This document shows positions 4,396-22,885 of a DNA stretch of 28,521 nucleotides, one piece after another. Both the position numbers and the translations under genes were made by a program. The notes under the pieces were generated by a model, which saw only the letters and a list, made by a program, of their open reading frames with translations, searched no databases and was not told the origin of the DNA. The stretch lies in the IMG/VR virus record IMGVR_UViG_3300025889_000707, positions 1 through 28,521 of that record; one strand, 5' to 3'. The stretch comes from a virus. Within the stretch, counting starts at the first letter, position 1. The number at the start of each line of letters is the position of its first letter.

Positions 4396-5168
4396 TGCCT
4401 GATTTCAAGGTCGGATTAGGAATTTGCACGCATAGAGAAATCCGAATGAGGGTTCACCAGAACCTTCGGATGCTCTATAAATGCCCTAACCCTGAAATTA
4501 GCGAAATCTCTGTTGATCAAGACGGTCTTATTTCTAGGTCGAGAAGTCGGGTTGCGACTTACTTTACGGACAAAACAGATGCAGATGTGCTTCTTTTCTT
4601 AGACGACGATATTATTATTTCTAGTGTAGATGCTACAAAGTTAGCTTGGCTATGTTACAAGGAATATCCAATCATAGGCGGTATTTACGCTACCAAAAGT
4701 CAATCTAACCCAGGATTAGCCGCTCAGCCGTTTCAAGATAATGGAGAGATTATTTTTGGTAAGAATGGCGGAATAGTTAAGATGAAAAATCTTTCTACAG
4801 GTTGCATGGCTATCAGAAGAGAAGTATTTGAAAAGATGAAAGCAAATTCGGAATCAATCGGTATTCATGATTGTGTTCATGGAGACTATAAATATTGGAG
4901 TTATTTCCAGCAGAGAGACGTTTTTACTGGTCAATGGAATGATACTTCCGAAGATTGGTTTTTTTGCAGGAACGCAATGCAATTAGGATATGAGATTTAC
5001 GCTGATACGACTATTATTTTGGGACATATCGGCAATTATGAGTATACGGTTCATGATATCCCTAATTTTAAGAAGCATCAGAAAACAGAAAATGTTTTAT
5101 TCAAATTTGGAAAAAATACCGTTCCTGTTCTTAACGGGAACGAGGCCCTAATAGGCTCAAAGGAGTAA
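4395..5168 (+). CDS. GT2-like glycosyltransferase (GT-A fold)
   Basis: A 257-residue protein with the order of a family-2-like GT-A glycosyltransferase: an N-terminal beta strand (VGLGICTHRE), an SRSR segment, an acidic metal/nucleotide-sugar motif FLDDD near residues 68-72, STGCMAIRREVF near 135-146, an ED pair near 185 (EDWFFCRNA) as candidate catalytic acidic residues, and LGHIG near 209 as a possible metal-binding histidine. It would transfer a sugar from a nucleotide donor; the acceptor is unknown. It starts by a TAATG overlap with the preceding signal-peptide gene and is followed 2 bases later by the scaffold candidate, so it is an integral member of the head operon. A virion protein or a host surface glycan are both possible acceptors. 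Confidence 0.8.
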   Translation: MPDFKVGLGICTHREIRMRVHQNLRMLYKCPNPEISEISVDQDGLISRSRSRVATYFTDKTDADVLLFLDDDIIISSVDATKLAWLCYKEYPIIGGIYATKSQSNPGLAAQPFQDNGEIIFGKNGGIVKMKNLSTGCMAIRREVFEKMKANSESIGIHDCVHGDYKYWSYFQQRDVFTGQWNDTSEDWFFCRNAMQLGYEIYADTTIILGHIGNYEYTVHDIPNFKKHQKTENVLFKFGKNTVPVLNGNEALIGSKE

Positions 5169-20857: not shown

Positions 20858-20901
20858 TTTCAATAAAAAAACCCAATTATAACCCAAAAACAATATATTC
20901 T

Positions 20902-20967
20902 CCGTCGATGAAACACGCTTTCCAGGCGAGCCGTTTAAGCCACTCACGCACCCCTCCTCATCGACGG
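20902..20967. repeat. Inverted repeat flanking the tRNA half
   Basis: CCGTCGATGA (20902-20911) and TCATCGACGG (20958-20967) are perfect 10-bp inverted repeats separated by 46 bases. They enclose the tRNA-Ser 5' half almost exactly. They may be core-flanking recombinase sites of attP or a cruciform-forming element. Confidence 0.65.
20911..20957 (-). tRNA. 5' half of a tRNA-Ser(GGA) within putative attP (incomplete)
   Basis: Read on the - strand, 20957 to 20911 looks like a tRNA-Ser from its 5' end to the end of the anticodon arm: acceptor strand GGAGGGG, TG, D-arm CGT-GAGTGGCTTAA-ACG with three perfect pairs, then anticodon stem CTCGC, loop CTGGAAA (U33, anticodon GGA, A37) and GCGTG. Four of the five anticodon-stem pairs form; T-T is the mismatch. 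No variable arm, T-arm or 3' acceptor strand follows, so it cannot be a functional tRNA. It is best read as the host-identical segment of an attachment site used by the adjacent integrase. Confidence 0.68.
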
Positions 20968-20993
20968 TAAATCAAGACTTATCCACAGGCGGA

Positions 20994-21078
20994 TTATTGG
21001 GTAAATTTGGGTCAATCGTGACAACGTAGGCCATTGTTTGGTCTTGAAAACTTTGAAAACCCAAATTTTACCCAATAA
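20994..21078. other. Putative attP arm sites (17-bp inverted repeat)
   Basis: ATTGGGTAAATTTGGGT at 20996-21012 and ACCCAAATTTTACCCAAT at 21059-21076 are inverted repeats with one extra T; the match extends two bases outward on each side (TT/AA). The gap is 46 bases, as in the other inverted repeat nearby. Further ACCCAA motifs occur at 20871 and 20882. The location next to the 3' end of the integrase gene fits integrase arm-binding sites. A transcription terminator is unlikely with such a large loop. Confidence 0.55.
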
Positions 21079-21080
21079 AA

Positions 21081-22028
21081 TCATAGCCGTACTCGGATCA
21101 TTCTTTCCGCAAGATAGTGGGGCTGGAAGTGAGCATACCTTTGAACCATTGAAAGCGTTCCCCACCCGCCAAGAACCCTTAAATCGGCCAAGGTTCCGCC
21201 GGATTTGAGGTAAGCCGAGGCCCAAGTATGCCGAAGGTCATGGGGCCTTATACGGCCCATTCTAGCGCGGGCGACGGCCTTTCTAAACGCGCTTTCAAGC
21301 CCGTCCTTTGTCCATGCTCCTACTATCGTTAATAGCAACTTCCGCGTCATAGGACGCAAGGGAATGTGACGGCTTCCTGTTTTGCCTGAAATATTAACGC
21401 CGTGTTCTGAGATGTTATCTGATGTTATATTCAAAAACTCTCCGATCCTCATTCCGGTATTATAAAGGACGTAAATAACCCTCCGCAATCGGGGGGAGGA
21501 TGCTTTGTAGAATGTTGCCATGTCTTCCCTTGATAGGAACCGCGCCACGTCTTGTTCCTTAAATTGGCTGACAGATTTACATGGGTTAGCGGTTAAGTAC
21601 CCCGCGCGGACGCAAAACTCAAAGAATGTTTTGAGATTGCGAATAACCATGTTGATCCCAGCAACCTTCCTGAACTCTAAAAGCCGATTCTTGAATTGCT
21701 CAACCTCTTGGGGCGTTATAGTCTGAATCTTCCTATCTCCAAACTCCCCTAAGAACGGTGAAAGAGAGGTTCGGGCTATTTCCGCCGTCCGTGGCCTTAC
21801 AGTCTTGCCCATAACTTCAAGATATTCGCGCATACAGATTTTGACTGTGGTGGTAGCAAGAGAGGGATTTTGCCTTAGAACAAGCCCTTCTTCAATCTCG
21901 GCTTCAATGATCTTGGCTGTACGCCGATGGGTTCCGGCCCTTCGGCTCTTCTGGACTCCGTTTTCATTCCAGCGGACTATATAGCGCGGGCCTTTTTTGG
22001 TTTGATAGGTTTCCGTCCAAGGTGGCAT
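21081..22028 (-). CDS. int: Tyrosine recombinase, phage integrase
   Basis: A 315-residue integrase that would recombine attP with a host attB, probably a tRNA-Ser gene. It has an N-terminal arm-binding-like region (GPRYIVRWNENGVQKSRRAG), a SAM-like core-binding domain around residues 60-145, and a catalytic domain with Arg194 (TGMRIGE), Lys216 (SGKTGSRHIPL), His263-x-x-Arg266 (HDLRHT), Trp289 in place of the second histidine (LGGWG, a known substitution) and Tyr298 (QRYAHF). It is complete, lies downstream of the repressor on the same strand and is probably cotranscribed with it. The putative attP lies immediately beyond its stop. Confidence 0.93.
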   Translation of the reverse strand: MPPWTETYQTKKGPRYIVRWNENGVQKSRRAGTHRRTAKIIEAEIEEGLVLRQNPSLATTTVKICMREYLEVMGKTVRPRTAEIARTSLSPFLGEFGDRKIQTITPQEVEQFKNRLLEFRKVAGINMVIRNLKTFFEFCVRAGYLTANPCKSVSQFKEQDVARFLSREDMATFYKASSPRLRRVIYVLYNTGMRIGEFLNITSDNISEHGVNISGKTGSRHIPLRPMTRKLLLTIVGAWTKDGLESAFRKAVARARMGRIRPHDLRHTWASAYLKSGGTLADLRVLGGWGTLSMVQRYAHFQPHYLAERMIRVRL

Positions 22029-22338: not shown

Positions 22339-22367
22339 TTGACAATATATGCATATATTGTTATATT
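22339..22367 (+). promoter_or_regulatory. Early promoter with embedded palindromic operator
   Basis: TTGACA (22339-22344), a 17-base spacer and TATATT (22362-22367) form a near-consensus sigma-70 promoter reading rightward. The spacer contains most of CAATATATGCATATATTG (22343-22360), an exact 18-bp palindrome, so a dimeric repressor here would block RNA polymerase. A second short palindrome TATGCATA (22367-22374) lies 19 bp further on, at the expected start point. Confidence 0.8.
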
Positions 22368-22678: not shown

Positions 22679-22885
22679 ATGATTGAGAAACGCGGATTTA
22701 CCCTAAAAGAGGCAAGTATTTATACCGCTATCGGTGCGCGTACGCTTCGCAGACTTGTTGAAGAGGGGCGGATCGCATTTGCAAAATGCGGAACGGGCGA
22801 CTTTAAAAAACAATCAATCATATTTTTGCGGGAAGACCTGGATAGACTGCTCACCAAAAATCGAATTGAAGGAGCGAGGGTATGA
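22679..22885 (+). CDS. Xis/MerR-like helix-turn-helix protein
   Basis: A 68-residue protein that fits the excisionase-type HTH_17 domain: FTLKEASIYTAIGARTLRRL, then VEEGRIAFAKCG and FLREDLDRLL. Such proteins bind att arm sites to direct excision or regulate early genes. GGGAGGG is found about 9 bases before the ATG, after the structured leader. It is the first clear gene of the rightward early operon, where an excisionase would be expected. The stop overlaps the next start (ATGA). Confidence 0.7.
   Translation: MIEKRGFTLKEASIYTAIGARTLRRLVEEGRIAFAKCGTGDFKKQSIIFLREDLDRLLTKNRIEGARV

Follow-up and report, generated by a model that had tools for sequence, protein, structure and literature searches.

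The window, by which we mean the whole analysed stretch of 28,521 nucleotides from an IMG/VR virus record carrying genes for terminase, head formation and DnaB-type replication, very probably contains a phage attachment site (attP) of the 5'-half type, with a host among the Elusimicrobia and the tRNA-Ser(GGA) gene as target. This reading becomes very probable because the integrase gene lies only 124 bp off, inverted repeats occur at the site, and a complete tRNA results when phage and host sequences are joined. Such a mirror-image arrangement is rare elsewhere and, to judge from their sequences, common among related mobile elements of the Elusimicrobia.

Read on the minus strand from 20957 to 20913, the segment (GGAGGGGTGCGTGAGTGGCTTAAACGGCTCGCCTGGAAAGCGTGT) comprises 45 nt corresponding to nt 1–45 of tRNA-Ser(GGA), with 100% identity to the genes for this tRNA in three Elusimicrobia (MGUU01000013, L006; MGUQ01000010, L007; JAKFYJ010000017, L008). 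The identity begins at tRNA nt 1 (nt -1 in comparison to L008) and stops just past the anticodon stem. The preliminary description had placed a tRNA-Ser(GGA) 5' half at 20911–20957; this identification was confirmed for 20913–20957, whereas positions 20911 and 20912 do not belong to the tRNA, 20911 being where an inverted-repeat arm begins. Past nt 45 the sequence diverges at once, and variable arm, T-arm and 3' acceptor are indeed missing, so that the segment is not a canonical 3' fragment. The first 42 nt were found as exact matches only three times in 84,980 genomes (one per species), in each case in an Elusimicrobia MAG and at the start of an intact tRNA-Ser(GGA), which excludes chance; bacterial tRNA-Ser genes fitting the 5' half therefore do exist. 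A search of 341 Elusimicrobiota genomes that tolerated one mismatch in 30 nt matched 10 of them, at one site each. Neither ARAGORN nor Rfam at the gathering threshold detected a tRNA in the window, and their silence on the segment itself is expected, because only half a tRNA gene is present there. A tRNA 3' half was likewise not found elsewhere in the window by these two programs.

The adjacent integrase gene (21081–22028, minus strand) encodes a tyrosine recombinase of 315 aa (PF00589, E 1e-18; PHROG integrase, E 4e-53), in which the residues R194, H263, R266, W289 and Y298, invariant in the alignment, make up the catalytic set of this enzyme class. The gene reads toward the half-tRNA and its stop (21081) lies 124 bp short of the block (20957–20913); the attP is thus located outside the integrase gene, and the gene is not of the split, pTN3-like kind. 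In an annotated phage collection, relatives of the integrase reached less than 60% identity, and about 25% among the matches listed. Apart from the integrase, the window encodes a small HTH_17 protein (22679–22885) that weakly matches an excisionase family (phrog_66, E 9e-4) and might be a directionality factor. A strong sigma-70-like promoter (TTGACA, 17 nt, TATATT, extended -10) is present on the plus strand at 22339–22367, where it precedes the early genes and points away from the integrase gene, and at the contig end (28435–28521) an imperfect repeat, present twice 48 nt apart, encodes WGNSSVVA-like units. The terminase was considered as evidence for the host and discarded; it has matches of about 29–42% in 58 Elusimicrobiota genomes, yet also of about 30% in Vibrio and other phages, and is therefore uninformative in this respect.

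When the integrase side of the phage was joined in silico with a host 3' half, a complete tRNA-Ser(GGA) was obtained; 3' halves of this gene read GTACTTGC... or GTCCTTTA...CTCCCCCTCCGCCA. The other in silico junction and the attP itself contained no tRNA, and an intact gene consequently arises on the integrase side only; the attP holds a 5' tDNA fragment, identical over nt 1–45, which restores the gene. In the three genomes with an exact match, tRNA-Ser(GGA) is situated about 5 to 30 bp behind a histidine-kinase gene, so that integration would leave an orphan 5' half at this place and the intact tRNA behind phage DNA. Searches with the integrase and with the tRNA pattern revealed no lysogen of the window phage in the 341 Elusimicrobiota genomes.

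In the proposed mechanism, the 45-nt block and the matching 5' half of tRNA-Ser(GGA) in the host would be recombined by the integrase, and the crossover would probably take place in or beside the anticodon loop CTGGAAA of the near-palindromic anticodon arm. One end of the lysogen would then consist of host upstream DNA and an orphan 5' half, and the other end of the phage integrase gene, the phage leader, the phage 5' half and the host 3' half, together forming an intact tRNA gene. Integration would deprive the restored tRNA of its own upstream region, and its transcription in the lysogen must then start on the phage side, presumably as part of the integrase transcript or from a promoter in the leader. 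No convincing sigma-70 promoter was identified in the phage leader before the half-tRNA.

The half-tRNA is enclosed by a perfect 10-bp inverted repeat (CCGTCGATGA/TCATCGACGG), one arm of which abuts tRNA nt 1 and the other of which starts 2 bases past the block. The right-flank motif (TCATCGACGGAGAAT, 20897–20911, minus strand) represents one inverted-repeat arm and is probably a site for the integrase or an accessory protein; its inverted copy (TCATCGACGGTAAAT, 20958–20972, plus strand) adjoins tRNA nt 1 on the integrase side and shares the 13-mer CATCGACGGTAAA with the end of the integrase gene in one close relative (L024). Additional arm-type repeats were detected right of the core at 20868–20897 (AACCCAATTATAACCCAAAAAC and its complement, minus strand; direct repeat D1) and on the integrase side at 20993–21012 (ATTATTGGGTAAATTTGGGT; inverted repeats I1, I4 and I5) and 21056–21085 (AAAACCCAAATTTTACCCAATAAA; repeats D1, I1 and I4), the last of which touches the integrase stop codon. 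Repeats of the AACCCAAATTTTACCCAATAA type flank the half-tRNA on both sides, as expected for arm-type integrase sites.

Similar motifs recur in the attPs that were reconstructed for 13 relatives of the element. The 7-mer CCCAAAA/TTTTGGG was present in 11 of these 13 attPs (background about 16%), and an unbiased count, which included the window and was uncorrected for the number of 7-mers, gave an enrichment over element interiors with p 1e-7. A further motif, GACGRNRA, occurred within 75 nt of the core on its far side in 11 of the 13 attPs as against 4.8% of background windows, a significance that is optimistic because the motif was defined after viewing the sequences; the 6-mer CGACGA also emerged from the unbiased count of attP flanks. 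In the window, GACGRNRA flanks the core once on either side; the two copies are oppositely oriented and constitute the inverted repeat.

The perfect complementarity of the two arms and their direct contact with tRNA nt 1 could also mean that the 66-nt segment is a functional RNA, namely a tRNA half whose ends are held together by a 10-bp stem and which serves as mimic, decoy or processing signal of the integrase transcript. The calculated fold (MFE -27.4 kcal/mol, z -2.2) agrees with this idea, but its stability derives mostly from the repeat and is only modestly better than that of shuffled sequences, and Rfam gave nothing above threshold, for which reasons an RNA element was rejected. Moreover, a hairpin closing the half-tRNA is found in none of the reconstructed attPs of the 13 relatives, whereas the arm sequence recurs there on only one flank of the core, as a DNA motif. 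A function as RNA is thus exceedingly improbable, and the two arms flanking the half-tRNA probably represent paired protein-binding sites, which in the 5'-half-type attP would be occupied by the recombination complex.

Relatives of the integrase (E ≤ 1e-15) are held by 66 of the 341 Elusimicrobiota genomes, none of them as a close copy, and 89 places were classified by the nearest tRNA. At 38 of these, an intact tRNA follows directly downstream of the integrase gene on the same strand; 11 have the tRNA on the ordinary side, one is placed otherwise, and 39, some of which are probably XerC/XerD, have no tRNA nearby. The reversed arrangement accordingly accounts for 38 of the 50 tRNA-adjacent relatives. 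In 13 of the 38 cases, the intact gene is preceded, 6–29 kb upstream, by an orphan 5' fragment of a tRNA, oriented alike; each of these fragments covers the tRNA from nt 1 or 2 to a position between nt 37 and 45, and they derive from tRNA-Ala, Arg, Ser, Thr, Tyr and Val genes, at which these elements would integrate in the same manner as the window phage. An intact tRNA beside the integrase gene, combined with an orphan 5' half at the opposite end of the element, is the footprint of 5'-half exchange. Together with the tRNA restored in silico, these lysogen structures bear out the earlier interpretation of the segment as a putative attP. The 25 cases that lack an orphan fragment are partly due to short contigs or to the fetched length, but several have more than 15 kb upstream and yet none. 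TATAAT-like hexamers were observed on the element side 10–20 bp before the tRNA (e.g. G224:C29, G228:C45 and G224:C140). Leaders with a -10-like hexamer (at least 5 of 6 positions) numbered 23 of 38, in comparison to a mean of 12.9 and a maximum of 22 in 300 shuffles; this is no more than suggestive of elements bringing their own tRNA promoter.

Two phages, G004 and G005, match the window from 228 to 21274 at 99.4%, including the attP. Their integrase is reduced to the C-terminal 71 residues (about a quarter), fused to another frame, with no further PF00589 match (G005, L021, 16284–16673; G004, 21537–21761); the fused frame resembles an ORF found elsewhere in the same phage (82% over 76 nt, G005 4750–4825). 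Late genes and attP are shared with the window, but the early module differs, and G005 has 88-bp direct terminal repeats. Judging from these genes, both may be derived forms that cannot integrate on their own. That they retain the segment in spite of a truncated integrase would fit a passive relic, i.e. host DNA taken along by an imprecise excision in an ancestor and now unused. A relic of this kind would hardly start exactly at tRNA nt 1, end after the anticodon stem and show no drift in 45 nt, beside an intact integrase gene and between repeats common to the attPs of the relatives. In addition, the same boundaries recur in 13 related integrated elements, some of them close copies, whose identity blocks have their first base between tRNA nt -4 and 2 and their last between nt 37 and 45. 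We therefore regard the relic as quite unlikely, and an attP of the 5'-half type remains the preferred reading.

In a quick tree of the integrases (LG+G4, SH-aLRT only), the window integrase grouped with two Elusimicrobiota integrases (G175 and L024) with an SH-aLRT of 98, a placement that is tentative owing to long branches. The G175 integrase is located directly at tRNA-Ser(GGA). L024 adjoins what appears by eye to be an orphan 3' half of tRNA-Leu, and 40 kb of sequence contain no intact tRNA there, so that the branch of the window integrase is not uniformly of the 5' type; the region in which the L024 integrase ends beside this apparent 3' half (2490–2610 of L024) also holds CATCGACGGTAAA. 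Taken by itself, such a neighbour would agree with an ordinary use of the tRNA site, in which the 3' half is supplied elsewhere, or with destruction of the tRNA as in tRNA-dependent lysogeny. The latter is known from mycobacteriophages, which like the window phage have a tyrosine integrase and a tRNA gene as attB, but which use a core of about 10 bp without tRNA restoration and bring a whole tRNA (PMC10865867). The attP of the window differs from this in its 45-nt restoring block, and the window, as a contig that may be incomplete, contains neither a tRNA gene nor a tRNA 3' half; the block restores the tRNA exactly. Both variants are thus highly unlikely in comparison to the 5'-half-type attP.

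As a control, 53 similarly distant integrases of IMG/VR phages (25–37% identity, from 80 loci) were classified in the same way as the Elusimicrobiota relatives. A nearby tRNA was present in 16 of the 53, and all 16 integrases face its 3' end, with no reversed case. Reversed and canonical arrangements differ between the Elusimicrobiota and control sets with a Fisher p of 2e-8, a value that overstates independence because many control integrases are near copies (tRNA-His) and the rows are not independent. The integrase gene hence points toward the tRNA 3' end in the control phages and toward the 5' end in the Elusimicrobiota group. As the anticodon arm is nearly palindromic, the same attP layout (integrase gene, then core) could arise with the arm flipped, and use of a flipped arm could explain the 5'-half type without new chemistry.

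In 16 of the 38 Elusimicrobiota relatives, the reading frame of the integrase enters the tRNA gene. Frames running into or through the restored tRNA gene were recorded for L023, L068 (G332), L069 (G138), L072 (G176) and L075 (G334), and the integrated and excised states are predicted to have different C-terminal tails in four of the six cases with both ends known. It is conceivable, though somewhat doubtful, that a large group of Elusimicrobiota integrases flips the near-palindromic anticodon arm, which would place the element upstream of the tRNA and capture its transcription, and that some of their genes end inside the restored tRNA, so that integration and excision would switch the C-terminal tail and tie integrase expression to an essential host tRNA. 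The window integrase stops before the half-tRNA, and a change of the tail is therefore inapplicable to this phage. No description of tail-changing integrase genes running into a tRNA in Elusimicrobiota was found in the subset of open-access literature that was searched, nor was one of the prevalence of 5'-half integration in this phylum.

The 5'-half kind as such is already known, though rare, from Islander islands and from pTN3-like integrases. Islander contains 3760 islands with 3' tDNA fragments and 159 (of 3919) with 5' fragments (PMC4383910), in accordance with the premise of the preliminary description that 3' halves are usual. Its 5'-fragment islands have a tyrosine integrase, a tRNA target, the element upstream of the restored tRNA and a displaced 5' end (PMC4383910), as the window phage would have after integration; they are a small minority there, in contrast to 38 of the 50 tRNA-adjacent Elusimicrobiota relatives, and the site in the window is the very probable attP of a free phage. 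A review describes use of the tRNA 5' half as seldom met in bacteria (PMC8371274). In archaeal pTN3-like integrases, attB is a tRNA 5' half (shared block of 41 bp in pTN3), and the restored tRNA is severed from its own promoter and expressed from that of the integrase (PMC8371274, PMC5495485). The tRNA 5' half is common to both systems, but the pTN3 integrase gene is split on integration, whereas that of the window, with the attP 124 bp past its stop, stays whole. Ordinary 3'-fragment phages and islands also have a tRNA target, often a core in the anticodon arm, and the integrase gene beside attP; unlike in the window, the tRNA portion that they contain is the 3' one, and the tRNA keeps its own promoter.

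The sequence alone thus sufficed to name a likely host phylum for an uncultured phage and to predict its exact attachment site. A form counted as rare (about 4% of the Islander islands) is the commoner one among the tRNA-adjacent Elusimicrobiota relatives of this integrase. Because essential tRNA genes receive a new upstream side from these elements, the tRNA supply of the host should depend on the prophage in a lysogen, and this dependence would offer a direct test of the coupling between a mobile element and tRNA expression.
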